From positions 1 to 64,000 of the IMG/VR virus record IMGVR_UViG_3300044712_001401: a stretch of 64,000 nucleotides of DNA. One strand, given 5' to 3'. Below, piece after piece: positions 1,925 through 61,624 of the stretch (position 1 is its first letter; every line of letters starts with the position of its first letter). Made by a program: the position numbers and the translations under genes. This stretch comes from a virus. The notes under the pieces were generated by a model. The model was not told the origin of the DNA, did no database searches, and saw only the letters and a program-made list of their open reading frames with translations.

Positions 1925-2389
1925 GTGTCACACATCACCACATCGAAAATCGTCATCGGCGGAGATAAGCTCGACGAGTTCGCGGCGGCTTGTCGCGAGT
2001 GCGGCGTAGAGTTGGTTCGCGGCGCGTTGCAATTTCGGGCGTACGGAGGCGGGATGAACCCCTGCGTGCATAAGGTCGTTCTGCCTGGAAGAAAGGCGGC
2101 CTATGAAATCGGCCTGCGTCGGGCGCGAGTCAATGCGGACGGTTCGGTCGTCGAGGACGCGAACGGCTCGGCGTATGTCTTGGCGTTCGACGAGTGGGAC
2201 GGGGGCAAGGGGATGGTTCACGCGGTCGGGGAGGGGTGCGGGCGACTCTTGCAGGCGTTTGGGCGGGAGTCGATTCTTGCGACGGCTCGAAAAACTGGAG
2301 CAACGGTCGTCGAGACGCGGCTGCCGGACGGAACGGTGCGGATGACGGTCCGCCCGAAACCGATGGGGAAGGTCGCTCGCCAGTGGTAG
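1925..2389 (+). CDS. DUF1257 (Ycf35-like) protein
   Basis: The protein begins MSHITT, as DUF1257/Ycf35 proteins do, and keeps the family's features: a CGVELV segment after helix 1, a YEIGLRR strand, an aromatic FDEWDGGKG motif, and a C-terminal helix LLQAF. The start is GTG with GAGGAGG upstream (1912-1918). In cyanobacteria, plastids and some phages the family occurs next to DUF2997 proteins and an AAA+ ATPase; its biochemical role is unknown. Here DUF2997 follows directly, but no AAA+ gene is adjacent. Confidence 0.85.
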   Translation: MSHITTSKIVIGGDKLDEFAAACRECGVELVRGALQFRAYGGGMNPCVHKVVLPGRKAAYEIGLRRARVNADGSVVEDANGSAYVLAFDEWDGGKGMVHAVGEGCGRLLQAFGRESILATARKTGATVVETRLPDGTVRMTVRPKPMGKVARQW

Positions 2390-2397
2390 CCGGTAAA

Positions 2398-2417
2398 CGA
2401 TAGCTGCGGAGCTATCG
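2398..2417 (+). promoter_or_regulatory. Intercistronic hairpin H3
   Basis: A perfect 8-bp stem CGATAGCT/AGCTATCG with loop GCGG lies just after the DUF1257 stop codon. It has no T-run. Confidence 0.6.
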
Positions 2418-2457
2418 TGGCTCCGGAGACGGTAGGAAAACTTTAAAAGGTAAAGCC

Positions 2458-2655
2458 ATGTCTGGACAAGAAATCGAAGTTACGATCGCAACGAACGGGA
2501 CGGTCAAAATTGAGGCGAAAGGGACGGTCGGCAAGGCGTGCGAGTCGCTCACGAAGCCATACGAGGATGCCATCGGGGCTCGGATGGCGGTGGCGCGAAA
2601 GCCGGAATACAACCAGACGGTCCAGGCGACGGCGCAGCGTCACGCGGGGCAGTAG
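2458..2655 (+). CDS. DUF2997 family protein
   Basis: This 65-residue protein has the pattern of DUF2997: a short beta strand (IEVTIATNG), a second strand with KIEAKG, then GKACESLTKPYEDAIG leading into a helix. DUF2997 proteins are small partners encoded beside DUF1257 proteins, as here. The ATG follows a poor AAAGG site. The C-terminus is basic and probably disordered. Confidence 0.82.
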   Translation: MSGQEIEVTIATNGTVKIEAKGTVGKACESLTKPYEDAIGARMAVARKPEYNQTVQATAQRHAGQ

Positions 2656-2669
2656 CGACCAAGGCAAGG

Positions 2670-2692
2670 CGGCCGGCAAGTAACGCCGGCCG
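2670..2692 (+). promoter_or_regulatory. Intercistronic hairpin H4
   Basis: A perfect 8-bp stem CGGCCGGC/GCCGGCCG with a 7-base loop lies about 35 bases upstream of promoter P2. It could end transcription from P1 without a T-run, or stabilise the upstream mRNA end. Confidence 0.6.
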
Positions 2693-2728
2693 AGTCTCGC
2701 AAGGCTCGGACGTTTTATTGCATGCTGG

Positions 2729-2786
2729 TTGCGTCATATGCCGATTGTGGTAGTATTGAGTCGTCGGACGCACGGGGCGGACGAGA
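2729..2786 (+). promoter_or_regulatory. Promoter cassette P2 (TTGCGT-N16-TAGTAT)
   Basis: The -35 box TTGCGT lies at 2729-2734 and the -10 box TAGTAT at 2751-2756. The 16-base spacer begins CATATGCCGA, and the downstream CGGACGCACGGGGCGGACGA is shared with P1 and P6. It drives the run of genes from 2845 to the methyltransferases. Confidence 0.78.
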
Positions 2787-2844
2787 CGAAACGAGACAGA
2801 CGGTGCGGTTATGGTGTTTTTTCAAAACAACGGAGACGAAGGCG

Positions 2845-3132
2845 ATGTGTGCGACAGTTCAAGAAACGCGAAAGCCACGGCAGACAGCTTGGGTGTTTAC
2901 GAGTTTCCAACAAGCGATGGAGACATTCCGCGAGCAATCGAGCGAAAGCCCTGGCGATGTCGGGATTGCCGTGAACGAGACTGGGTTGGTGTGGCTCGTC
3001 GGCTCGCGCGAGCAGGTCGAGGAAGTCTCCAAGATGTCGATGGAGACGGCGACGATTCAGGCAATGCAAGCGGCCGGGATGACGACGGAACTGATCGAGT
3101 GGGAGCTACGGGACTCGGGACAGGCGGACTAA
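2845..3132 (+). CDS. Small protein, unknown function
   Basis: A 95-residue soluble protein starts at ATG 2845, eight bases after CGGAG. It has a Trp/Phe-rich N-terminal half with a possible beta-hairpin (GIAVNETGLVWLVG) and a C-terminal pair of helices. It has no catalytic or metal-binding motif and no recognised family. It is the first gene downstream of P2. Confidence 0.72.
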   Translation: MCATVQETRKPRQTAWVFTSFQQAMETFREQSSESPGDVGIAVNETGLVWLVGSREQVEEVSKMSMETATIQAMQAAGMTTELIEWELRDSGQAD

Positions 3133-3158
3133 CGATCGTCGTCCGAATCGATGGAACC

Positions 3159-3446
3159 GTGGAGTACGTCGACGAGCCGGAAGCCGCGCAGTATGCCGGA
3201 GGGCTCGTCGCGGGCGGGCGGACTCGCAGGGCGTCGCACGTTTGGCCGGCGGGCATTATGCGCCGGCTTGCGTTTCGTGTGCTACGCGTGGCGTTTGGCG
3301 AGCGTGGTGTAGTCGCGGGCTGGACGCGGCGGTGGCGTGGGGAGTGGGTCGTGCAAGTGATCGGCGGTGAGCGGCTCGGGCCGTTCCTGTCGCGAGACGA
3401 GGCGATCGCGGCGGAGATCGCCTATCTGAACGAGCGGATTGTCTAG
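3159..3446 (+). CDS. Small basic protein, unknown function (start uncertain)
   Basis: The frame is open from the stop of the previous gene to 3446. GTG 3159 is a tentative start; an ATC or CTA nearer 3129 is also possible because the spacing to the upstream stop is tight. The product is about 95 residues, Arg/Trp-rich in the middle, with a C-terminal segment GPFLSRDEAIAAEIAYL of the kind seen in small phage proteins. The family is unrecognised. Confidence 0.5.
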   Translation: MEYVDEPEAAQYAGGLVAGGRTRRASHVWPAGIMRRLAFRVLRVAFGERGVVAGWTRRWRGEWVVQVIGGERLGPFLSRDEAIAAEIAYLNERIV

Positions 3447-3459
3447 GAGGCGGAGTGAC

Positions 3460-4383
3460 GTGGACGGGAACAAAAAAAGCTATTCAGTCGCTAAAAATCC
3501 GTGTGCTGCGTGTCCGTATCGCAAAGACTGCCCATCGGGGGTATGGGACGCGTCCGAATACGACAAGCTGCCAGCGTACGATGCCGACACGGCAGAGCAG
3601 CCGGCAGGCGTTTTTTTGTGTCATGATGGCGACGCGGAGACGCGGCTCTGTCGGGGGTGGCTCGACGTGCACAAGGCAGATGAGCTGCTCGCGATTCGCT
3701 TGGCGGGGGCGTTCGGCGCAGACTTGACCAGGGTCTACGAGGCGGCGAGGGAGCCTACTGCGATTCCGTTGTTCGGCTCGGGGCGGGAAGCCTGCGAGCA
3801 CGGCAAGCGAGATATCGAGACGCCAAGCGAGGCGGCAATTGTCGCAACGGTAAAGCTCGTGCGGCGACATTCGCGGCTGCGGAAAGTCGCGGGTGGATTG
3901 ACCGGAAGTTCCGAGCTAGGTATAGATTTCAGGCAAGGAGAAATTTCGATGGGAAAGAAAACGGAGGCGACGCGACGCAAGAAAAGCGGCGGTCGTCAAG
4001 TGCGAAAAAGTCGCGGCGAGTCGCCAGTTCGGTGCAATGGCACGGTGTCTCGCAATACTGCCAAGGCGAGGCGGCTCGCGATTCAGGGGCGAGATCCTGG
4101 CGAGATCGCCAAACAGTGCGGCATCACTGTGGCAGCGTCAAAAGCGGTTCACAAAGAGGCGCAAGGTCGAGCCGGCGGAATCGGGGCCGACTGTACGACG
4201 AGCGACGCGGCGTGGCTGCTGGGCGTGACGGAGCGACGCGTTCGGGCGTTGTGTCAGCAGGGGCGCATCGAGGCGTCTTTGTTTGGCGGTTGGGCGTGGC
4301 GAATTATCACCAAATCGCTAATGGAGTTTGCGGACTCGGAGCGGGTCGTGGGGCGAAAGATTTCGACGGCCGGGGCCGAGTAA
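3460..4383 (+). CDS. DUF6283 zinc-binding protein with C-terminal HTH
   Basis: The N-terminal ~110 residues match DUF6283: NPCAACPYRKDCPSGVW near residue 14, then FLCHDGD and LCRGWLDVH, giving conserved Cys and His residues suited to a metal site. The centre is basic. The last ~70 residues form an excisionase/MerR-like helix-turn-helix (SDAAWLLGVTERRVRALCQQ, then GGWAWRI). GTG 3460 is preferred because AGGAGG lies 8-9 bases upstream. The two domains suggest a DNA-binding regulator, but the function is inferred. Confidence 0.75.
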   Translation: MDGNKKSYSVAKNPCAACPYRKDCPSGVWDASEYDKLPAYDADTAEQPAGVFLCHDGDAETRLCRGWLDVHKADELLAIRLAGAFGADLTRVYEAAREPTAIPLFGSGREACEHGKRDIETPSEAAIVATVKLVRRHSRLRKVAGGLTGSSELGIDFRQGEISMGKKTEATRRKKSGGRQVRKSRGESPVRCNGTVSRNTAKARRLAIQGRDPGEIAKQCGITVAASKAVHKEAQGRAGGIGADCTTSDAAWLLGVTERRVRALCQQGRIEASLFGGWAWRIITKSLMEFADSERVVGRKISTAGAE

Positions 4384-4418
4384 TTTTTGCTGCGACAGCA
4401 ACGCGAAAGGGGCTCGGA

Positions 4419-4781
4419 GTGGCGCATCTGGTGCGGTTTCCGTTTGTGCTCGACGAGGCGCTCGTGATCGTCGAAGGCGAGTGGCGAGAGTGCCGAGTCA
4501 CGGGGGCGGTGTTGGTGCTTTACACACCACGCCAGCGTTCTCGCTATCTCGACGTGCCAGACACGCCGGAACAAGTCGAGCTAGACTCAGTCGCAAAAAT
4601 TGAAAGCGTCGAGTGGGAGCATGGGAAGCTGACCGAATCTGACGCGGGTCTTCATTATCTTAGCGAATCAGCAAGGCTGCTTCGTGAAAGCGTGGAAGCA
4701 ATCTTGTTCGCAGACGAGCGGTGGCTAGTGCGGATTGTCGACGAAAACCGGGATCGATTGGCGGTGCTCAAGTGCGGCTAG
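4419..4781 (+). CDS. Hypothetical protein (120 aa)
   Basis: The start is GTG 4419. The protein opens with beta-rich segments (VRFPFVLDEALVIVEGEW and a second strand pair with a proline) and ends in two amphipathic helices. It has no Cys cluster, membrane helix or recognised family. It sits between the DUF6283 gene and another unknown gene on the P2 transcript. Confidence 0.65.
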   Translation: MAHLVRFPFVLDEALVIVEGEWRECRVTGAVLVLYTPRQRSRYLDVPDTPEQVELDSVAKIESVEWEHGKLTESDAGLHYLSESARLLRESVEAILFADERWLVRIVDENRDRLAVLKCG

Positions 4782-4801
4782 CGCTCTGTTATTCCGGGAC
4801 A

Positions 4802-5287
4802 ATGGCAGAGCTAGTTTCCGGAGCGAGAGACTCGAATCGGTTTGCGATGTTGGTCGCGTATTCTCGCGACGAGTATGAGCTTGCAATTGGCGACCGCAGC
4901 TCGCTCGTAATTACGGCCGATCCGAAGATGTTTGGCGTTGGTGCGCCGTCCGGGCGTGTCGTGTGGCTTGGGCATGGCGACGCGTTGGCCGAGGCGCGAG
5001 CGTATGCCGAGGCGAACGGCAGAGCCGGTTCGTCAAGCGTCTTTGTGCTGACGCCGGAAGTCTGGGACAGAATCGGAGCGGGGCTTGTCTGGTTGTTCGA
5101 CCATCGTGCTGGTCCAGGAGAACGCCGTCGGTGTTCCGTCGGGCGGCTCGCGTTTTGTGTCGCGGGCGATGTGCCTGCGATTGAACGCGCGTGCATCGGA
5201 GCGAAGCTGGGTAGTATCCTTGCCATGCACGCTGGGAATCCGTACCAACTCCGAGCGTCCGAATCGGAATCAATACGCGGGGGATAA
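4802..5287 (+). CDS. Hypothetical protein (161 aa)
   Basis: ATG 4802 is used; the ribosome site is poor. The first ~90 residues alternate strands and helices (FAMLVAYSRDEYELAIGD, then VFVLTPEVWDRIG). The C-terminal half is Cys/Arg-containing and less ordered. No family is recognised. It is followed after one base by the next ATG, which implies translational coupling. Confidence 0.65.
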   Translation: MAELVSGARDSNRFAMLVAYSRDEYELAIGDRSSLVITADPKMFGVGAPSGRVVWLGHGDALAEARAYAEANGRAGSSSVFVLTPEVWDRIGAGLVWLFDHRAGPGERRRCSVGRLAFCVAGDVPAIERACIGAKLGSILAMHAGNPYQLRASESESIRGG

Positions 5288-5810: not shown

Positions 5811-6273
5811 GGCGAGCGAAAGGCGTGGAACATGAGCAGCGGCGAGTTGCGAGTTCGGAATTTGGGCATCCGTCGCGTGCGGGTGCGGGATATCGTCGAC
5901 AACCCGCGCAACTATCGGACGCACGGGGACGAGCAACGCGAGGGATTCGCGAAGACGGTGGCGGAAATCGGTTGGTACGGCTACCCGGACGTCTTTGAGC
6001 ACCCGGACTATCCTGGCAAGGTCATGCTGATCGACGGGGAGCTACGAACCCACCATTTGCTCGCCAAGTACGGGGCCGAGGCGGAAATCGAAGTCAACGT
6101 GACGGACTTCACGCCGGCCGAGGCGGCGAAGGCGTTGGCGACGCACGACCCGATTTCGGCGCTCGCGGGGTTCGACGGCCAGAAACACGCGGACTTGATG
6201 CGTGAATTGTCGTCCGTCGAGTCGTCGGCGGAGTTCCAGGGGTTTCTCGACTCGCTCGCGACGAGCCAGAACG
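5811..6273 (+). repeat. Direct duplication, left copy (ParB-domain coding)
   Basis: This 463-base stretch is repeated without indels, and with only scattered substitutions, at 7085-7547. It includes the ribosome-binding region, start codon and ParB-like domain of two adjacent methyltransferase genes. Similarity falls off sharply after the shared LATSQN coding segment. Confidence 0.9.
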
Positions 6274-7109
6274 AGCAATTCAAATCCGTCCTGGAAAATG
6301 TCTGCGTGGGAGGAAATACAAACCCGGACGACGTGCCAGACGAGCCATCTGTAGCGATGACCAGAGCGGGTGACTTGTGGCTGCTTGGCGAGCATCGGTT
6401 GCTCTGCGGAGACGCTGCAAATCTATCGCACGTCGAGCGACTCATGACTGGCAACAAGGCGGATATGCTTTTAACGGACCCGCCGTACGGGGTCAGCTAC
6501 GTCGGAAAAACAAAAGACGCGCTGATAGTAGAGAATGACAACCTCAGCGAAAAAGATCTCACGGCTCTCGTTGTTCGTGCGTTTGACAACGCGGCGGCAA
6601 TCTGCCGTGGCGGAGCGTACTGGTATGCAACGGTCCCGGCGGGACCGTTGCATATCCTCTTTGCCGACGATTGGAAGCGGCGCGGCGTGCTTCGGCAAAT
6701 CATGGTGTGGGTCAAAGACGCGATGGTGTTAGGGCACAGTGAGTATCACTACCAACACGAGCCGATTTTGTTCGGGTGGATTCCTGGCGAACGACACAAA
6801 AACTCCGACCGTACACGGACGACTATCTGGAAGTACGACCGCCCCAAAGCGAGCCGCGAGCATCCAACAATGAAGCCAGTCGCGTTGTGGGCGCAAGCAG
6901 TTACTGACGGATCGCGGACCGGCGAGGTTGTGTACGACCCGTTCCTCGGTTCTGGTACAACGATCATCGCGGCCGAGCAACTCGGGCGAAAGTGTTACGG
7001 GATGGAGCTAAGCCCAGTGTACTGCGATGTGATTGTCAATCGATGGGAAGCGTATACAGGCAGGTCTGCGACTTTGGTAGAGGCGACGAGCGAAAGGCGT
7101 GGGACATGA
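5832..7109 (+). CDS. ParB-like domain / DNA methyltransferase fusion 1
   Basis: Residues 1-130 form a ParB/Srx-like nuclease-type domain (NPRNYRTHG, then [10 protein letters not shown]). Residues ~185-420 are an N6-adenine/N4-cytosine DNA methyltransferase of the beta order: catalytic DPPYG at 216-220, then AdoMet-binding DPFLGSGTT at 369-377, and a C-terminal [14 protein letters not shown]. It most likely methylates phage DNA; no cognate endonuclease is adjacent, so it is an orphan enzyme. The stop overlaps the next ATG (ATGA). The next gene carries a near-identical N-terminal domain, so this is one of a duplicated pair. Confidence 0.92.
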
Positions 7110-7547
7110 GCAGCGGCGAATTGCGAGTGCGGAATTTGGGCATCCGTCGCGTGCGGGTGCGGGATATCATCGACAACCCGCACAACTACCGGACGCACGG
7201 GGACGAGCAACGCGAGGGATTTGCGAAGACGGTGGCGGAGATCGGTTGGTACGGCTATCCGGACGTCTTCGAGCATCCGGACTATCCTGGAAAGGTCATG
7301 CTGATCGACGGGGAGCTACGAACCCACCACTTGCTCGCCAAGTACGGAGCCGAGGCGGAAATCGAAGTCAACGTGACGGACTTTACGCCGGCCGAGGCTC
7401 AGAAGGCGTTGGCGACTCACGACCCGATTTCAGCGCTCGCGGGGTTCGACGCGACCAAGCACGCGGACTTGATGCGCGAGTTGTCGTCCGTCGAATCGTC
7501 GGCCGAGTTCAAGGGGTTTCTTGACTCGCTCGCGACGAGCCAGAACG
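7085..7547 (+). repeat. Direct duplication, right copy (ParB-domain coding)
   Basis: This is the second copy of the 463-base duplicated segment, offset by exactly 1274 bases from the left copy. Most differences are silent third-position changes, which points to a fairly recent duplication followed by divergence. Confidence 0.9.
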
Positions 7548-8674
7548 CCAAGCTCGCGGAGATGCTAAATCGAGCCGACAGAACCAAAAATGTGCGGGAC
7601 GTGCCGGCGACGGCGGCGGCCGAAGAGAGCGAGACGGTGACGCGGCGCGGCGATTTGTGGCGGCTGGGCGAGCATCGGCTGCTCTGCGGCGACTCGACGA
7701 ATGCAGAGGACGTGGCGCGGCTGATGAATGGCGAAAAGGCGGATTTGTGCTTCACGTCGCCGCCATACGGGCAACAGCGAGACTACACGAATGAAGTAAA
7801 AGAAAAGTGTCAAGACTGGGACGGCCTTATGCGTGGCGTCTTTGGCAACCTGCCGATGGCCGACGCGGGGCAGGTACTCGTCAATCTCGGACTGATTCAC
7901 CGCGAGGGCGAATGGATTCCCTATTGGGATGGATGGATTGAGTGGATGCGGACGCAGGGCTGGAGGCGTTTTGGCTGGTACGTGTGGGATCAGGGACCGG
8001 GACTTCCTGGCGACTGGGCTGGCCGCTTGGCCCCATCACATGAGTTTGTCTTTCACTTTAATAAACACGCCAAAAAGCCGGATAAGACGGTGGAATGTAA
8101 GCATGCAGGACACGTCGGCCATAACAAGGGAGGACTTCGCGACGTCGATGGCAAAGTCTTAGAGTGGTCGCACCGAAACCAACCAGTGCAAGACATGAAA
8201 ATAGCGGATTCGGTCTGTCGAGTGTCGCGTGAAAAGGCATCGTACCTGCACGGCCACCCCGCCATGTTCTCAGTTGGGTTTGCGGCTTACTTCGTTGTCG
8301 CATGGCCAGGGGCGATCTACGAACCTTTTTGCGGTTCTGGCACAACGCTAATCGCCGCCGAGCAACTCGGCCGCAAATGCTACGGCATGGAGATTAGCCC
8401 GCAGTATTGCGACGTCATCGTGCGTCGCTGGGAGTCGCTCACCGGACGACAGGCGGAACGCGTCGTGGGCGGGCCGCTCGGCGACGCAGGCTGCCGAGGC
8501 GGCTCAAATGCCGAACCGGGCAGCGCGGACGCGACGGCGGCGACGTGGGGCGGCTGGGGTGGCGGATCTCAAGCGATCGGTGACGAGGTCGGCGTCGAGA
8601 TGCGGCAGCCGACGCCGGACGAGCTTGACGCGTCCGGCGTGGTCTACGTGCGGCGTTCACGCCGAGGCGGCTAG
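7106..8674 (+). CDS. ParB-like domain / DNA methyltransferase fusion 2
   Basis: ATG 7106 overlaps the previous stop and matches the start of the paralogous gene. The N-terminal ~140 residues are almost identical to that gene. The catalytic half differs: TSPPYG at 217-222 and EPFCGSGTT from residue 406, with a different central region that probably sets target choice. An SPPY motif is commoner in N4-cytosine enzymes, so it may make a different mark. The C-terminus is a Gly/Ala-rich tail. Its stop codon overlaps that of a convergent minus-strand gene in a CTAG. Confidence 0.92.
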
Positions 8675-13442: not shown

Positions 13443-14532
13443 TTCATGGGATGCGTGGATTGAAGATGCGTTCGGCGAGGACGCAAACGCGGACCAGCGG
13501 GAGCCCCGAACGGACGACGTTTCGCCTGTTGATCCGGGCGAAATCGTAGCCGACGAAAACCGCGAAGCGGATCGAGGGGAGGCAGGTGGTTCCCAGGATG
13601 TATCGGCGGGGCAAAGGAAACGAAGGCGACGTCCGGAGCGTGGGCGTGGTGGGCGTCCTCGCGAAGAGGACCGGGCAACGGCTACGGGCGGTCGGTATGC
13701 TCGCTATCTGGAAGCGGACCGCGAGCGAAAGCGGATCGCGAGGGCTGCTCAACGCGAGCTAAGGGAGCGAGCGGAGCGGGAGGCGTCGAGCGGAGCGGGC
13801 GAGACGACCGAGCCGATGGCGTCGCCAGTCGTGTCTGGTGGCGTGCGACTGGACGCGGGAGCGGACGTCGCACAAGATACGCGCGGGGCCGAAACCGCAA
13901 ACACCTTCCGGAGCACGGAAGACGGACCGGTCGCTCCAAGCCAACGAACGGACCAGCAACTCGACAACGTCGCGCGGTCGAATCATCCTCGCGACGACAG
14001 CAACAACGCGGCAGCCTCCGTGGTTGATGGTGGCTCGTCGTCGAGCGGTCCGACGTCCGGGGCCGGGGGCGTGTCGCGCGCGGCACCGAACGCGAGCGGA
14101 GCAGGCGTCCGGGAGCCGTCGGCGTATGACGACGAAAGCGGGTTGACTCACGCCGAGGAGTTGCGCCATGTCGAGCGGGCGGTGCGTCAGCGTTGGCCGA
14201 CGACACCGCAAGCGAGGCAGCTAATAGCGCAGAAGATTACGCTGCTCGCATTGTCGCCTGAGTCGTCGCCGGGGCTCTCGCTCAAGGCGGCTCGAATCTA
14301 CGTGCAGATGGAAGCTCAAAACCAATCGGACGAGCACAAAGTTCTTCCAGATCAGCTAATCACTTATGACGGAACCGCGCGGCCTGTCACAACTGACGGA
14401 CAACGAGTTGCTCTCATTAGAGCGTTGCTTGCGGAGCGACAGCGACGCGCCGCTCTCGGCGGACGAGATCGAGCGAATCGCGACGAGCCTGGGGCTGCCA
14501 TCGACACGAGACCGGAGCGGCCGGCTAACTGA
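13423..14532 (+). CDS. Candidate terminase small subunit or packaging accessory
   Basis: ATG 13423 follows GGCGGGAA. The N-terminal ~230 residues are low in complexity and highly charged. The folded part lies near the C-terminus: a helical block with TPQARQLIAQKITLLALSPE followed by YVQMEAQNQSDEHK, which resembles the helical core of small proteins encoded just before TerL in other phages. Assignment as small terminase rests mainly on position. It overlaps TerL by 167 bases in a different phase, which is long for this genome. Confidence 0.6.
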   Translation: MSQAGSNSWDAWIEDAFGEDANADQREPRTDDVSPVDPGEIVADENREADRGEAGGSQDVSAGQRKRRRRPERGRGGRPREEDRATATGGRYARYLEADRERKRIARAAQRELRERAEREASSGAGETTEPMASPVVSGGVRLDAGADVAQDTRGAETANTFRSTEDGPVAPSQRTDQQLDNVARSNHPRDDSNNAAASVVDGGSSSSGPTSGAGGVSRAAPNASGAGVREPSAYDDESGLTHAEELRHVERAVRQRWPTTPQARQLIAQKITLLALSPESSPGLSLKAARIYVQMEAQNQSDEHKVLPDQLITYDGTARPVTTDGQRVALIRALLAERQRRAALGGRDRANRDEPGAAIDTRPERPAN

Positions 14533-16102
14533 CCGCGAGTATGCCGACAAGCTCGCCTGCGAGACGAGCCTGCACGCGTTCGTTGAGCGAGCGTGGCCGA
14601 TTGTGGAACCTGGGACACCGTTTGTCGACGGTCCGCACTTGTGGGCGTTGTGTGCTCACGCGGAGGCGTTGCGGTTTGGTCTGATCCGCAATCTGCTCGT
14701 CGCGATTCCGCCGGGCTGCATGAAGTCGCTGCTGTGGTCGGTATTTTATCCTCCGTGGATTTGGTCCACCGAGCCGTCCTCGCGGTTCATGTTCGCGAGT
14801 TACGACCAAAGCCTTTCGACTCGCGACTCCGTGCGTTGTCGTTCAATCGTCGAGTCGGATTGGTATCGATCGCTCTGGGGCGACGTCGTCGCGCTTGTCG
14901 GGGACCAAAACGAAAAGACGCGGTTCGACACTGTGGCGCGGGGCTGGAGAATCGCGACCAGCGTTGGTGGGAGAGGCACGGGCGAGCACCCGGATTATCT
15001 CATCGTCGACGACCCGCTAAACGCGAAACGGGCGACGAGCGAGACCGAGCGGAAAGCGTGCGCGGCGTGGTGGGATGGCACGATGACGACTCGCGGCGAA
15101 ATCCGAGACGTCCGGCGAGCCGTGATCGCGCAACGTCTTGCGCCGGCCGATTTGCACGGGCACATCCTGGAAGTCGACGCTGGGCTCGGTGCGTGGGAAT
15201 ACTTGATGCTCCCGATGGAATACGAGCCGGAGCGGCATTGCAGCACGTCGATTGGCTGGAGCGATTGGCGCAGCGAGCCGGGGGAGTTGCTCTGGCCGGC
15301 GGCGTATTCGCGCGAAAAAGTCGATCGGCTCAAGCGTTCGCTAGGCTCAAAACGTGCGGCGGGACAACTCCAACAACGTCCGGTGTCACTTGACGGGGAG
15401 GTCTTTCAGCGGGCGTGGTTTCAGATTGTTGATGCGGCTCCGGCGGACGCCACGCGGGTTCGCTTCTGGGATAAGGCGGGGACGGAAGGCGCTGGCAAGT
15501 TCACAGCCGGCGTGCGGATGTCGTGCAAGGCCGGTGCGTTCTATATCGAGGACGTCCAGCGGGCGCAATTGTCGTTCGGCAAACGCGAGCAATTCATTCG
15601 GCAGATAGCAACGCTAGACGCGGACACCGTTGGTTACGTGCGGACGTGGCTGGAGCAGGAGCCGGGGTCCGGCGGAAAGGATTCAGGCAAGATCTCGGTG
15701 ATCTCGCTCGCGGGGTTTGACGTGCGGCTTGACGTCGTCTCGGGACAAGGCAGCAAAGTGGTGCGAGCGCAGGGGCTGTCGTCGCAAGCGGAGGCGGGCA
15801 ACGTATTCCTTGTGCGCGGGCCGTGGAACGCGACGTTTCTGGACGAAATCGAAGCCTTTCCGGGCGGCGAGTATTCCGACCAAGTCGACGCGTCGAGCGG
15901 GGCGTTCAACAAGCTCGCGCTCGGGGCCGGCGACGGAGCCGATTACGTGGGCGACGTCGTCGCAAGCGGCGAGGACGACGACGAGCGGCGGCCGTTCGGA
16001 GACGACGAGTTAGCCGAGTTGCCGGACGAGCTACGCGAGCTAATCGGCGAAATGCGGGGACTTCGCGGAAATCGTCGCGGGCGTGGGCGTAGCGACGACT
16101 AG
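14366..16102 (+). CDS. terL: Terminase large subunit
   Basis: The protein is the ATPase-nuclease motor that packages phage DNA into proheads. The N-terminal ATPase has an adapted Walker A, IPPGCMKS (residues 114-121), and Walker B LIVDDP (211-216), followed by a coupling motif region. The C-terminal RNase H-like nuclease begins near VRFWDKAGTEG and ends with an acidic GADYVGD. The length, 578 residues, is normal. The Met in place of the usual Gly before the Walker A Lys is found in some TerL families. The ATG lies inside the preceding gene. Confidence 0.95.
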   Translation: MTEPRGLSQLTDNELLSLERCLRSDSDAPLSADEIERIATSLGLPSTRDRSGRLTDREYADKLACETSLHAFVERAWPIVEPGTPFVDGPHLWALCAHAEALRFGLIRNLLVAIPPGCMKSLLWSVFYPPWIWSTEPSSRFMFASYDQSLSTRDSVRCRSIVESDWYRSLWGDVVALVGDQNEKTRFDTVARGWRIATSVGGRGTGEHPDYLIVDDPLNAKRATSETERKACAAWWDGTMTTRGEIRDVRRAVIAQRLAPADLHGHILEVDAGLGAWEYLMLPMEYEPERHCSTSIGWSDWRSEPGELLWPAAYSREKVDRLKRSLGSKRAAGQLQQRPVSLDGEVFQRAWFQIVDAAPADATRVRFWDKAGTEGAGKFTAGVRMSCKAGAFYIEDVQRAQLSFGKREQFIRQIATLDADTVGYVRTWLEQEPGSGGKDSGKISVISLAGFDVRLDVVSGQGSKVVRAQGLSSQAEAGNVFLVRGPWNATFLDEIEAFPGGEYSDQVDASSGAFNKLALGAGDGADYVGDVVASGEDDDERRPFGDDELAELPDELRELIGEMRGLRGNRRGRGRSDD

Positions 16103-26512: not shown

Positions 26513-26912
26513 AAGTCATGAGTGGTTTTGTCCTCGTTGCTGGCGAGTGCTGGAGTGGCGCGAAGTGACGTTCCAAGAGACGCACGACGGATGCGGCGAA
26601 GGCGTCGAGAGTCGCGAGCGAATCGCGGCGAGAGCAACGCCGGAGCGTGTTTTGGCTATGATTGCGGCTCGCGGTTGGTCTTCGCACTGGACGCACCGTG
26701 GTGCGTATCTGCACTTGGAGGCGTCCGAGCTAATCGAAGCGGTGCGAGGCAAACGCGGCGACGTTGTCGACGAAGCCGGAGACGTGTTGCTCGTGTTGCT
26801 ATCGATTGTGGGAGCGGCCGGCGTGTCTTGGGGGGACGTCGAGCGCGCAGCGGCTACCAAACTCGCAAAACTAGAACGGCCGGGGCCGTATCGCGACGAG
26901 GGGACACAATGA
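26502..26912 (+). CDS. MazG-like nucleotide pyrophosphohydrolase
   Basis: Residues ~65-100 show the MazG-fold signature: LHLEASELIEAVRGKRGD then VVDEAGDVLLVLLSIV, i.e. ExxE followed by ExxD acidic ligands for Mg2+. MazG enzymes hydrolyse (d)NTPs or ppGpp-type alarmones, and phage versions tune host nucleotide pools. The first ~30 residues carry CPRCW and CGKS elements, an unusual zinc-like extension. The stop overlaps the methyltransferase start (ATGA). Confidence 0.82.
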   Translation: MCGKSHEWFCPRCWRVLEWREVTFQETHDGCGEGVESRERIAARATPERVLAMIAARGWSSHWTHRGAYLHLEASELIEAVRGKRGDVVDEAGDVLLVLLSIVGAAGVSWGDVERAAATKLAKLERPGPYRDEGTQ

Positions 26913-27964
26913 ACACCGAGAAGTCTTGGTCGGTATTGATTGGCGATGTCCGGGTTCGTCTGCGCGACGTCCCGGACGAGTCGGTGCATTGTGTGGTGAC
27001 ATCGCCACCGTATTTCTCTCAGCGTGACTACGGGATGCCGGAGCAAATCGGGCTAGAGAAGACGTCGGCGGAATATGTCGCGCAACTCGTCGCGGTGTTC
27101 CGCGAAGTTAAGCGCGTCTTGCGTCACGACGGAACGCTCTGGCTGAATCTCGGCGACAAATACGCGAGCCAAGGTGGGGCTCGCAGCTATGGCTCGTCGG
27201 ACGGCGCGGTGCGTCGGGCAGACGCTCCGGAGCGGAGAGCCCCGACGCTGCCACGCAAGAACTTGTACGGTATCCCGTGGCGTGTCGCGTTTGCCTTGCA
27301 AGACGACGGGTGGCTGCTGCGGCAGGATATTATTTGGCACAAATCGGATGCCATGCCGGAGAGCGTGACGGATCGGTGCTCGTCGGCGCATGAGTACGTT
27401 TTTCTTCTGGCTCGCGGATTCGATTACTTTTTCGATGCGGACGCCATCGCGGAGCCTGCCAGCGGAACGAGCGGCGGAGCGTGTTTCGGCAAGCAACAAC
27501 ACGATGCGGCCGGCTCCGGAGCGCAATCTCGCAGGTACGACCGGCCGGAGTACGAGACTCGCAACAAGCGAAGCGTTTGGACCATGCCGACGTCCAAGTT
27601 TGGCGGAGCGCATTTCGCGACGTTTCCGCCGGCTCTCGTCGAGCCGTGCGTTCGTGCGGGCACGAGCGAGCGCGGGTGCTGCGCCGGATGCGGCGAGCCA
27701 ATCCGTAGCGGAGGCGTCAAACGCTGGTGCACTTGCGGGAGCGAGGACGTTGCGCCGAGCGTGGTACTCGATCCGTTTGGTGGCTCGGGGACCGTCGCGG
27801 CAGTCTGCGACCTGCTCGGCGGGCGACGGACAATCCTTTGCGAGCTAAACCCGGAATACGCGGCGATGATTCCGGAGCGAGTGCGAGACGTTCGAGATGC
27901 GGCGTTCGGGCGGACGAAGCAGCGTGCGGTTCCGCCGATGCCGGGTCAAAAAGATCTTTTCTAG
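26909..27964 (+). CDS. DNA methyltransferase (N4-cytosine/N6-adenine type)
   Basis: ATG 26909 overlaps the preceding stop. Catalytic TSPPY lies at residues 31-35 and AdoMet-binding DPFGGSGT near 288-295. A Cys-rich insert (CCAGCGEPI, then WCTCGSED) sits between them at about 250-275 and probably binds zinc. This is the usual design of orphan phage enzymes modifying N4 of cytosine. It is the third methyltransferase in the window, without a nuclease partner. Confidence 0.9.
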   Translation: MNTEKSWSVLIGDVRVRLRDVPDESVHCVVTSPPYFSQRDYGMPEQIGLEKTSAEYVAQLVAVFREVKRVLRHDGTLWLNLGDKYASQGGARSYGSSDGAVRRADAPERRAPTLPRKNLYGIPWRVAFALQDDGWLLRQDIIWHKSDAMPESVTDRCSSAHEYVFLLARGFDYFFDADAIAEPASGTSGGACFGKQQHDAAGSGAQSRRYDRPEYETRNKRSVWTMPTSKFGGAHFATFPPALVEPCVRAGTSERGCCAGCGEPIRSGGVKRWCTCGSEDVAPSVVLDPFGGSGTVAAVCDLLGGRRTILCELNPEYAAMIPERVRDVRDAAFGRTKQRAVPPMPGQKDLF

Positions 27965-28563: not shown

Positions 28564-28623
28564 ATTGGCTCGGCGGGATGCGGTTTGTTTTTTTTGGTCG
28601 AAACGCAAGACGGGGAAAGAGCG

Positions 28624-30027
28624 ATGGAAGACACGGTGAAAATCACGGAGTTGGACCTAGGCGAAATTTTCCTAGGCGAGTTGCGGAACAAGACCGCGAG
28701 AGTCGGAGTCGTCGGACTCGGAACGGTGGGGCTCCCACGGGCGGTGGCTCTGGCTCGCGCCGGATGGGACGTCGTCGGAGTCGATCGCAACGACGAGCGA
28801 CTAGCGAAGATTGCCAACGCGGCGATGTTCGGCGCTCGCCCCATCCCGGAGCCTGGGCTCCCCAATCAAATCTGCGGAGTTCCGGCCGATGACATTTTTG
28901 CGGCTGGAGAAATGGGCTTTACTGTCTACGCGTGGGACCAGTTACGAAATGAAACGGACGGCGAGCAAATCGACGTCTGGATCGTTTGCGTCTCGGCTCG
29001 CTCTCGCAAGGGAAACGACAAGCGGATGGGACCAGACTACCGACAGGTTCTGGACGCGGTGGCGCAAATCGGTGCGTTGTCGGGCGGGCGGAGTGCGCCG
29101 TTGCTGGTTGTCTTGGAGTCGCTCGTCGGTCCGGGAGCCACCCGAGCCCTGGTCGGCGAGACGCTCCAACGGATGCGACAGGAGCGTACGGTGCTTGCGG
29201 CGTACTCTCCGCCTGACTCGGGGATCGATCCGGAAAGTTTCAAGATGGTGAGTGGGACTAGCACCCTAGCGAGCCAAGCGGCTCGCGTTGTTTACGAATC
29301 GATTTTCACGCGGATATTGATCCCAGCGAAGGCGGAGGTAGTCGAAGCGTCGGCGCTCGTGCGGCATTGCCAACGAGTCACAATTCGCGCGCTTGCTAAC
29401 GAAATGTCCGATGCCCTGGCATTGATGGGAATCTCGTACGCAGACGCGTCTTTGCTCGCTCGTGATAGCGTCGGCCCGTTTGGGCATCGACACGTCTTGC
29501 CGGATGCCGGAGTCGAACCGACGGACTCCGCCGAGACGGCTCCGAGTGCGTTTGCCGATGTCGCGGATTCGTTTAGCGCAACTCCGATCATTCGGTACGC
29601 CGGCAATACGCAAGAGAGGCGATGGGAAAAGATCGTTGAACGCGTCGAGATACTCGCGGGACACTCGGGTCGCTCGCCTGGGGATGCCGAGCGCTGGCCG
29701 ATGATAATCGGGGTGTACGGGCTGCGACCGAAAGAGAGCGACGACGTCGAAGACGGTTCGGTCGGAAGCAAGATCGCGCAGGGGCTCGCGGCTCGCGGCT
29801 ATACGGTAAAGCTATTCGACGACGCGGGCGGCTCGCGTCCGACCGTCGATGATATGCGGCGGTGTTCCGTGCTCGTCTGCGTGCACGGAACGCAGGGGCT
29901 GCCGACGGAGATTCTCGCCAACGCGACGACGCAGGAGCCGTGGATTTACGACGTCAGGAACCCCCCGTCGTGCGACCGGATGCCGCGAGACTTGATCCGG
30001 CTCTGGCGAAAGTCGCTTGGCGAGTAA
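28624..30027 (+). CDS. UDP-glucose/UDP-ManNAc dehydrogenase-like protein, catalytic residues replaced
   Basis: The 467-residue product keeps the three-domain plan of NAD-dependent UDP-sugar dehydrogenases: an N-terminal Rossmann domain with GVVGLGTVGLPRA (~28-40), a central helical domain (ALVRHCQRVTIRALANEM), and a C-terminal UDP-binding domain starting IIGVYGLRPKESDD. Where active enzymes have GG.C.PKD, this protein reads FGHRHVLPD, so the catalytic Cys is His; the catalytic Lys of the central helix is Arg. It is probably not a normal oxidoreductase and may act on another substrate or only bind nucleotide sugar. ATG 28624 has GGGGAAAGA upstream. Confidence 0.82.
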   Translation: MEDTVKITELDLGEIFLGELRNKTARVGVVGLGTVGLPRAVALARAGWDVVGVDRNDERLAKIANAAMFGARPIPEPGLPNQICGVPADDIFAAGEMGFTVYAWDQLRNETDGEQIDVWIVCVSARSRKGNDKRMGPDYRQVLDAVAQIGALSGGRSAPLLVVLESLVGPGATRALVGETLQRMRQERTVLAAYSPPDSGIDPESFKMVSGTSTLASQAARVVYESIFTRILIPAKAEVVEASALVRHCQRVTIRALANEMSDALALMGISYADASLLARDSVGPFGHRHVLPDAGVEPTDSAETAPSAFADVADSFSATPIIRYAGNTQERRWEKIVERVEILAGHSGRSPGDAERWPMIIGVYGLRPKESDDVEDGSVGSKIAQGLAARGYTVKLFDDAGGSRPTVDDMRRCSVLVCVHGTQGLPTEILANATTQEPWIYDVRNPPSCDRMPRDLIRLWRKSLGE

Positions 30028-30046
30028 CCGGAATCGGAGATACGTG

Positions 30047-30619
30047 ATGCAGCGTCAGTTGCGGCTATTGGAACGCGGCGGTGTCGGAGTCGACGGGACG
30101 AGCGCGGAATACTCTCCGTGCAAGTTGTGGCGATACTCGCTAACGCGACTGTGGCGGCCGGCCGACGGGCACGACGAGCACGCGGGGAGCGTGGCGTTCG
30201 TCGCGCTCAATCCGTCGACGGCTACGGAGTACGAGGACGACCCGACGGTCCGCCGGATGATTCGGTTCGCGAAAGAGTGGGGACACGGAGGGCTCGTCGT
30301 GCTCAACGCGTTTGCGTATCGCTCGACGGACCCGCGAGGGCTCTACAACGTAGCGGACCCGGTTGGTGTCGAGAACGATTTCGCGATTCTCCGGTGGGTC
30401 GCGAGAGTCTCGCGGCTTGTCGTCGCATGGGGACGGCATGGGACACTGCACGGGCGATCGCATTACCTGTCGAGGCTCCTAGCTGACGCAAATCCGATGT
30501 GTCTTGGCACGAACGGAGACGGCTCGCCAAAGCATCCATTATACGTCGCGGCGGACACTCCCCTGCGACGATGGACCGGACGACCTATGACGCGGGCCGA
30601 CGGATGTCGTGAACCGTAA
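30047..30619 (+). CDS. DUF1643 family protein
   Basis: The protein matches DUF1643: FVALNPSTATEYEDDPTVRR, then GGLVVLNAFAYRSTDPRGL, ENDFAIL and a late VVAWGRHG. These conserved residues form an alpha/beta fold thought to be an enzyme, but its reaction is unknown. It occurs in phages and mobile elements. ATG 30047 is two codons after the alternative GTG 30044. Confidence 0.88.
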   Translation: MQRQLRLLERGGVGVDGTSAEYSPCKLWRYSLTRLWRPADGHDEHAGSVAFVALNPSTATEYEDDPTVRRMIRFAKEWGHGGLVVLNAFAYRSTDPRGLYNVADPVGVENDFAILRWVARVSRLVVAWGRHGTLHGRSHYLSRLLADANPMCLGTNGDGSPKHPLYVAADTPLRRWTGRPMTRADGCREP

Positions 30620-60130: not shown

Positions 60131-61624
60131 ATGAGGCGGAGACGACGAAGCGGTGGCGGAGTGTCGTCGGCAATCGCGAGATATCGCGAGGCGATGGGGC
60201 GATGGAAAGCGGCCGGCAGTCCGCTTCGGACACCACAACGGATTGAGTACATCCACAAAAAAATTTGTCGGCCGTGCACTCATTACAAACCATTGCTCGG
60301 CGATTTTGGGGTCTGTCGGCTTTGCATGTGCAGCCTGAACTTAGGCAATCGCATGAACAAGCTAGCGTGGGCAACCGAAGAGTGTCCGGACGACCCGCCA
60401 AGGTGGCTTGCGGAGATTCCGGTTCCGGCGTCGTCCTCTCCGGTGAGCGGCGTTGCTCTCGGGGGCGACGTCCAACTAGACCAGACGGAGATAGACGGCA
60501 TGACGGACCAACCGACGGTGGCGGAGACAGGCGATCGAGAAGAGAATACCGGGCGACGAGCCAGAATCGAACGGCGCGCCGCGCGGCGAGCCGCAAGGCG
60601 AGCGGCGCGAGAAGCAGAACGGCAATCGGCGGATGCAGGGGCTTTAGATCACGTCGTAGCGGACGCGTCCGCCGGGGCGTTGGCAGAATCCGTCGAGCGA
60701 CGCCGGCGACGTCGCGAGCGACGAGCGGCTCCGCCGGCTATATCGCTTCCGGCAAACGCCGACCCGCTGGAGTTATTTGGCAAAAATAGCGAGCCAATCG
60801 GCCACGCGTTGCGCAACTTGTGGGCTCCTGCGCCGGCGTTTCTGGTGTGCGGAGGACCGTCGCTCCGCTCGCTCGACGTCTCTCTGCTCGGGCAGCGTGG
60901 CGTTGTCTCGCTAGGCGTGAACAACGTCGCGGGGTTCGCGCCCGTGCGCGCTTTCGTGTGCTCGGACCCGCCGGAAAAGTTTCATCACGGGATCTGGCTG
61001 GACCCAGCGATTCTCAAGTTTGTGCCACGACCAAAACTCCCGAAACGGATTCGCGCCAAACGCGAGGATGGCTCGTTCGCGTTTACGTCAATGAGAGTCG
61101 CGGACTGCCCATCAACTTTTGCCTTTACGCGAGATTCCGAGTGGGAGCCGGAAAACTTCTTGCGACGTCCGGCGGCGACGTGGGGCGTTGGCAAGGGCGC
61201 GGCGGAAAAGACCGGACGTCCGAAGCAATTTTGTACGATGCTGCTCGGGCTGCGGCTACTCTGTTATCTCGGCGCGCGTCGCGTGTACTTGCTAGGCGTT
61301 GATTTTGCGATGGGACCAACGGACGAGAGCGGAGCCGGGAACGGATACGCGTTTAACGAGCGGCGAGACGTCGACGCGGCGGCGAGCAACAACGCCAAAT
61401 ACAAAGACGTTGCAAAGCTCGTCGCGGAGCTGCGGCCGACGTTCGAGGCGGCCGGCGTCGAAGTGTTTAATTGCAACGCGTCTTCGGCACTGACGGCGTT
61501 TCCGTTCGTGTCGTTCGAGGACGCGATTGCCGACGCTCGCCACCATATTCCGCCAGAGCCGTTTGACTTGCTCGGGTGGTACGACAAAGACGACGAGCGA
61601 GAGCGAAAAGCCGACGCGGATTAA
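60131..61624 (+). CDS. MptE-like (DUF115) Rossmann-fold protein, paralogue B
   Basis: Residues ~50-95 hold a zinc-knuckle region (RPCTHYKPLL, CRLCMCSLNLG); a long Arg/Ala-rich linker follows. From ~235 comes FLVCGGPSLRSLDVSLL, then SLGVNNVAG and SDPPEKFHHG, as in the copy at 30918-31871, ending with MLLGLRLLCYLGARRVYLLG. The shared core argues for intragenomic duplication. It ends the tail operon, so a role in modifying virion or envelope glycans is possible but unproven. Confidence 0.76.
   Translation: MRRRRRSGGGVSSAIARYREAMGRWKAAGSPLRTPQRIEYIHKKICRPCTHYKPLLGDFGVCRLCMCSLNLGNRMNKLAWATEECPDDPPRWLAEIPVPASSSPVSGVALGGDVQLDQTEIDGMTDQPTVAETGDREENTGRRARIERRAARRAARRAAREAERQSADAGALDHVVADASAGALAESVERRRRRRERRAAPPAISLPANADPLELFGKNSEPIGHALRNLWAPAPAFLVCGGPSLRSLDVSLLGQRGVVSLGVNNVAGFAPVRAFVCSDPPEKFHHGIWLDPAILKFVPRPKLPKRIRAKREDGSFAFTSMRVADCPSTFAFTRDSEWEPENFLRRPAATWGVGKGAAEKTGRPKQFCTMLLGLRLLCYLGARRVYLLGVDFAMGPTDESGAGNGYAFNERRDVDAAASNNAKYKDVAKLVAELRPTFEAAGVEVFNCNASSALTAFPFVSFEDAIADARHHIPPEPFDLLGWYDKDDERERKADAD

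Follow-up and report, generated by a model that had tools for sequence, protein, structure and literature searches.

Two tandem ParB-methyltransferases of a phage that probably share a ParB half and differ in the descent of their catalytic halves

The stretch of viral DNA analysed here, called the window, is 64,000 nucleotides long (positions 1 to 64,000 of IMG/VR record IMGVR_UViG_3300044712_001401). It carries two neighbouring genes, A and B, that begin with nearly the same sequence and end with different ones, and the question is how such a pair came about and what it would do for a phage. The best overall explanation, which is considered probable, is that A and B are two complete phage methyltransferases with the same ParB front half and with catalytic halves of different descent. 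The reading frames of the two genes overlap by ATGA, and the coordinates of their features are collected in Table 1.

Table 1. Features of genes A and B and of the repeat that they carry (positions in the window)
Feature	Position	Strand	Remarks
Gene A	5832..7109	+	ParB domain and DPPY-type beta-class DNA methyltransferase, 425 aa, predicted m6A
Gene B	7106..8674	+	ParB domain and SPPY-type beta-class DNA methyltransferase, 522 aa from ATG at 7106, predicted m4C
Repeat copy 1	5811..6276	+	21-base leader with ribosome-binding-like AAAGG, and ParB half of A
Repeat copy 2	7085..7550	+	Leader and ParB half of B
GELR, ParB P motif (GxxR, Box II) of A	6036..6047	+	From sequence; in B at 7310-7321
Linker of A, unrelated to the linker of B	6273..6368	+	ParB/MTase border, where A-B similarity ends; model pLDDT <50 at residues 150-161
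Family-constant segment of A ending NKADML, just 5′ of motif IV	6369..6473	+	In B at 7649-7753; swaps in relatives have their left border here
Catalytic motif IV TDPPYG of A	6474..6491	+	P217, P218 and Y219 invariant
Catalytic motif IV TSPPYG of B	7754..7771	+	T217, P219, P220 and Y221 invariant
Catalytic cassette of A, motif IV and target-recognition region up to motif I	6474..6941	+	Borders from swaps in relatives
Catalytic cassette of B, motif IV and target-recognition region up to motif I	7754..8326	+	Borders from swaps in relatives
Motif I FLGSGTT (SAM binding) of A	6942..6962	+	3′ constant segment begins; from alignment
Motif I FCGSGTT (SAM binding) of B	8327..8347	+	From alignment
Low-complexity C-terminal tail of B	8462..8671	+	No counterpart in A or aligned relatives; predicted disordered

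The common part is a direct repeat of 466 bases, ungapped and at an offset of exactly 1274, in which 36 bases differ (92.3% identity). A match of this length and identity is far beyond chance. The first 300 bases are 95% identical, and third codon positions hold 24 of the 34 coding differences. The preliminary description had reported a repeat of 463 bases at this offset with mostly silent changes, which agrees with these values. It had also called the duplication recent, but dS is 0.26 and dN 0.026 (NG86, codons 1-147, A versus B), and with 92% identity over the entire repeat the copies are not very recent. The leader of copy 2 sits within the 3′ end of A and codes for the last residues of A. 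The end of the repeat is abrupt. Right past position 6276, at about codon 147, the similarity of A and B drops to background (3-7 of 20 bases), and a weaker similarity reappears only at two family-wide segments (75% and 77% at the DNA level), the block just 5′ of motif IV and the block around the FxGSGTT of motif I. GC3 is lower in both catalytic halves (0.64-0.67) than in the ParB halves (0.82-0.84).

The N-terminal halves of A and B have no ParB match in Pfam, and both match the ParB-like PHROGs 8071/620. A profile built from 26 ParB halves and compared with the PDB retrieved Noc (7nfu, E 3e-13), Spo0J (1vz0, 4e-12), and ParB (6t1f, 4e-9). The GxxR motif is conserved across the fusion family, with G in 243 of 244 members and R in 216. 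Judged from these profiles, the N-terminal halves are true ParB/Noc-type domains with GxxR, and the ParB label of the preliminary description was sound. According to one survey, the nucleotide preference of the ParB-CTPase fold cannot be predicted from sequence (PMC12704722).

The C-terminal halves of both proteins contain PF01555 and match DNA methyltransferase PHROGs. Both show the beta-class order of a TDPPY or TSPPY motif IV, a target-recognition region, and an FxGSGTT motif I, and the difference in motif IV described earlier (DPPYG versus TSPPYG) is confirmed. In the model of A (mean pLDDT 86), the methyltransferase half is nearest in the PDB to CcrM (6pbd) and M.BceJIV. The model of B (mean pLDDT 77) is nearest to M.BceJIV, CcrM, an Adineta m4C enzyme, and others, with PvuII among the structure matches. 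The matches of B are a mixture of m6A and m4C enzymes, and structure comparison does not decide between these two for B. The tail of B has a pLDDT of about 31-54 over residues 460-522 and a GC content of 0.75. As a rule, a DPPY motif indicates m6A and an SPPY motif m4C. The profile of the DPPY clade places m6A enzymes on top (HpyAVI, CcrM, BceJIV, MboIIA) and PvuII near the bottom. In the profile of the SPPY clade, PvuII (m4C, E 7e-11) stands just over CcrM (1e-10), and M.BceJIV (m6A) stands above both. Motif IV and profile similarity together lead to the prediction that A forms m6A and B forms m4C.

The two halves of these genes have different trees. In the tree of ParB halves, A and B are sisters (SH-aLRT 98), and the gene of locus L001 is next. 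In the tree of catalytic halves, all SPPY enzymes form one clade and all DPPY enzymes another, and A and B stand apart. The AU test rejects uniting the catalytic halves of A and B (p 3.3e-11). The SPPY (S) or DPPY (D) label has to change 16 times on the ParB tree, with starred branches forcing at least 9 of these changes, and once on the catalytic tree. Sister ParB halves joined to catalytic halves from two clades indicate recombination at the ParB/MTase border. On the evidence of the trees, A and B are products of such recombination and not one uniformly diverging duplicate. The catalytic half of A is about 80% identical to those of loci L006-L022, and that of B about 70% to those of L086-L096. 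The ParB halves of these same genes are less than 40% identical to those of the window, or cannot be aligned with them. The nearest ParB half is that of L001 (62%), which bears a third catalytic type.

A simple old duplication, in which the catalytic half evolved faster and no exchange took place, is practically excluded. It could draw on the fast divergence of target-recognition regions, which is general for methyltransferases. The motif I block, however, aligns gap-free between A and B and its synonymous sites are saturated (pS 0.76), against a dS of 0.26 in the adjacent repeat, and each catalytic half has closer kin in other phages than in the other gene of the pair, as the AU test shows. 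Uniform divergence across both genes, which the preliminary description had named as the contrary case, was thus looked for, and the divergence is not uniform.

The preliminary description had proposed duplication plus domain replacement. The common ParB half with replaced catalytic halves is strongly supported by the trees, the AU test, and dS, whereas a recent duplication is only one possible history. The data fit an internal duplication followed by replacement, the capture of two alleles, and a conversion of the ParB halves equally well, and either half may be the original one. Two-allele capture is a variant of the best explanation, in which a phage with the ParB half and catalytic half of A recombined with a relative bearing a nearly identical ParB half and a B-type half, and no internal duplication ever occurred. 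This is a real possibility, albeit doubtful. Such allele pairs, with ParB halves 95-99% identical and different cassettes, occur in single-gene relatives, and the ParB-half dS of 0.26 could be the divergence of sister phages. Repetition of the 21-base leader is expected under either model. Against it, no single-gene phage of this ParB lineage is nearer than L001; a scan of viral contigs with the ParB half of the window found only L001, and a scan of genome contigs found none.

Tandem pairs of ParB-methyltransferases are found elsewhere as well. Among the 44 pairs found, the window's included, all 44 consist of one SPPY and one DPPY enzyme, although most are kin by descent and the count does not represent 44 independent trials. 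The order is S-D in 43 pairs, largely from AcaML1-like phages, and the window has the only D-S pair. In the AcaML1-like pairs, the ParB halves are 42-69% identical and mostly sort by gene type in the ParB tree, and these pairs are, by this sequence evidence, an old duplication. The window has the only pair whose ParB halves are each other's nearest relatives, and they fall outside the AcaML1-like ParB clade. The D-S order together with the sister ParB halves implies that tandem S+D pairs arose at least two times.

An ancient tandem pair, whose catalytic halves are old paralogues and whose ParB halves were homogenised by gene conversion, is an improbable origin for A and B. AcaML1-like phages commonly have S+D pairs whose ParB halves have diverged, and a conversion tract could stop at the ParB/MTase border. 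The reversed gene order, the position of the window's ParB lineage outside the AcaML1-like clade, and the closeness of its cassettes to those of single-gene phages all speak against conversion.

The exchange of catalytic parts behind a constant ParB half was followed in 244 non-redundant ParB-methylase fusions, which were collected by homology to chosen queries, so that counts in this set are not frequencies. Clusters were formed by single linkage, with ParB clusters at the ≥90% or 80% level. One ParB cluster of 35 members (≥90%) contains 22 cassette clusters, including both DPPY (predicted m6A) and SPPY (predicted m4C) types. At the 80% ParB level, the cassette type of A occurs behind 14 ParB clusters and that of B behind 32. 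In single-gene phages, ParB halves that are 95-99% identical carry differing catalytic cassettes, and pairs at 97-99% carry S-type or D-type halves.

Comparison of the DNA of sister phages (L006/L133, L059/L156, L059/L103, L011/L093, L070/L153, and L063/L133) shows left flanks 91-97% and right flanks 89-96% identical over 0.6-3.6 kb, with 453-581 bp replaced between them. Exchange of this kind is frequent among the related phages, and its usual unit, replaced exactly in these sister phages, is motif IV plus the target-recognition region. Its left border recurs just 5′ of motif IV, at ...AEDVERLMAGAKAD followed by xxTDPPY or xxTSPPY, and its right border just 5′ of motif I, at DPFxGSGTT. The constant flanks comprise ParB and the segment to AKAD on the left, and, on the right, everything from motif I FxGSGTT through the stop codon. 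Between A and B of the window the difference extends beyond the central cassette to the entire methyltransferase half, and the event is therefore not a standard cassette swap.

The swap cases come mostly from metagenomic contigs, which in general carry a risk of chimeric assembly. Mis-assembly across the conserved ParB and motif I segments is nevertheless a very improbable source of the swaps. Many contigs stop just 5′ of the gene, as at branching assembly graphs, and this speaks for chimeras. At least nine ParB/cassette combinations, on the other hand, recur in two or more separately assembled metagenomes, and this recurrence argues against chimeras. Mis-joining of short shared DNA cannot produce genes whose ParB halves are about 30% identical while their cassettes reach 96% identity. 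The pair of the window comes from a single contig, with 36 differences between its ParB copies. The 45 Gordonia and 18 Streptococcus isolate phage records contain no swap and conserve the whole gene, which suggests that frequent exchange depends on the lineage.

A scan of genomes with an L006-like ParB half gave only a dozen complete fusions, all of the DPP type, and no S/D swap in an isolate. The matches are mostly from planctomycete genomes and are mainly stand-alone ParB-like proteins; the L006-like ParB relatives L323-L390 come mostly from Pirellulales, Thermoguttaceae, and other planctomycetes. This hints at planctomycete hosts for the L006-like phages and possibly for the phage of the window. 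One planctomycete MAG, JAJFFH01, has three ParB-methyltransferases in one genome bin (L324, L331, L334), two of which agree at 89% in their ParB halves but at only 59% in their cassettes. The isolates Lacipirellula limnantheis and Aeoliella straminimaris (L366 2968-4742 and L376 2986-4777) encode a ParB-like protein that stands alone and is related to the ParB halves of the phages. Next comes a fusion of a P-loop ATPase and a GNAT acetyltransferase-like domain (PF00583, PHROG 11143), which is perhaps a further modification enzyme that works with a ParB protein of this kind.

Fusion of ParB to methylases and en bloc exchange of recognition domains are both already known. Fusions of the ParB-CTPase fold to N6_N4 methyltransferases in phages have been surveyed (PMC12704722), and 36 are reported from Paracoccus phages (PMC6536676). 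The second work applies the name ParB-TLS to modification genes that are flanked by the gene of a ParB-like protein and that of the large terminase, and suggests targeting during packaging (PMC6536676). The known fusions, as presented there, resemble the genes of the window in having an N-terminal ParB fold and a C-terminal PF01555, in occurring in phages, and in often lying near terminase genes. In the text available, these works report the fusion and its distribution, whereas cassette exchange behind a constant ParB half and S+D pairs are not described.

Gp24 and Gp25 of the Acidithiobacillus phage AcaML1 (JX507079) are, like A and B, tandem overlapping ParB-methyltransferases, one SPPY and one DPPY. 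Their ParB halves, about 62-64% alike, diverged long ago and belong to another lineage, their order is opposite, and their catalytic halves share 52% (B type) and 43% (A type) identity with those of the window. In type III modA alleles of bacterial R-M systems, the DNA recognition domain of an adenine methyltransferase is swapped en bloc between constant ends (PMC3311624), as in the phage fusions. In contrast to modA, the phage unit includes motif IV, allows a DPPY-to-SPPY switch, lies behind ParB, and is accompanied by no restriction enzyme that was seen. None of the neighbouring ORFs that were tested matches an endonuclease in PHROGs, and many of them match nothing. Duplicated type I hsdS genes (PMC7394358) and domain movement in H. 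pylori (PMC3077401, PMC3983042) alter specificity by recombination of repeated or conserved segments, and duplicated hsdS genes also place specificity genes side by side (PMC7394358). As described in the accessible parts of these reports, separate specificity subunits or recognition domains only are involved, while the phage unit carries the catalytic motif and a predicted change of base. The literature search found neither an exchange including motif IV with a predicted base switch behind a constant ParB in phages nor the S+D pairing rule, and this absence is no proof of novelty.

In the proposed course of events, recombination at the ParB/MTase border, which the trees show, placed two unlike catalytic halves behind nearly the same ParB half. 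Acting at different sequences, the DPPY enzyme would form N6-methyladenine and the SPPY enzyme N4-methylcytosine. With both marks on its DNA the phage could escape host restriction, and cassette exchange could let a lineage change its mark. The weakest step is that the ParB half may bind nucleotide and DNA and act as a common loader or targeting part. A link to packaging is possible because the gene adjoins the large terminase gene in several relatives; the ParB-methyltransferase gene is adjoining or near the terminase gene in L001, L006, and L093. The terminase gene of the window (14366-16102) is 5.7 kb from B and not adjacent. In L001, the large terminase (2321-4828, 835 aa) lies directly 5′ of the ParB-methyltransferase, and a part of it at about residues 365-630, with intein-like sequence, is left uncovered by its PHROG matches.

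That the ParB half has a separate role, for example nicking host or rival DNA as a nuclease, or acting as a nucleotide switch, rather than guiding the enzyme, is rather unlikely. The ParB domain of the ParB-methylase Bce_0392 is reported to be a nonspecific nickase (PMC5512222), and ATP binding is possible for fusions of the ParB fold to SAM methyltransferases (PMC12704722). Against this, regulation would be needed if a protective enzyme carried a nuclease.

With the ParB half as a guide, a broader reading can be offered tentatively, at somewhat less than even confidence. ParB-methyltransferases would be a combinatorial modification system of phages, with a constant ParB loader and an exchangeable cassette of motif IV and recognition region. 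One recombination would switch the base between adenine and cytosine, and S+D pairs would have arisen at least twice because two marks protect better. A single odd gene pair thereby leads to a testable rule, that phages retain the ParB half while the half for catalysis and recognition is traded, apparently with a change even of the modified base. Should methylation data bear this out, it would be a fast route to an altered modification pattern, comparable to the exchange of specificity domains in bacterial R-M systems but extending to the catalytic motif. Natural sets of enzymes with near-identical ParB halves and unlike catalytic halves make the role of the ParB half directly testable.

Other genes of the window were noted as well. 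A third DNA methyltransferase is encoded at 26522-27964 (+), with the sequence TSPPYFSQRDYG, PF01555 (E 8e-38), and PHROG 67; the profile used found no ParB half in it. The true start of this gene is probably an internal ATG (MNTEKSW) near 26906. The genes at 28585-30027 (+) and 60131-61624 (+) are possibly sugar-related, the first with a weak match to UDP-glucose dehydrogenase (PHROG 9148) and the second with one to sialyltransferase (PHROG 4603). A DUF1643 protein is encoded at 30017-30619 (+) (PF07799, E 4e-39).
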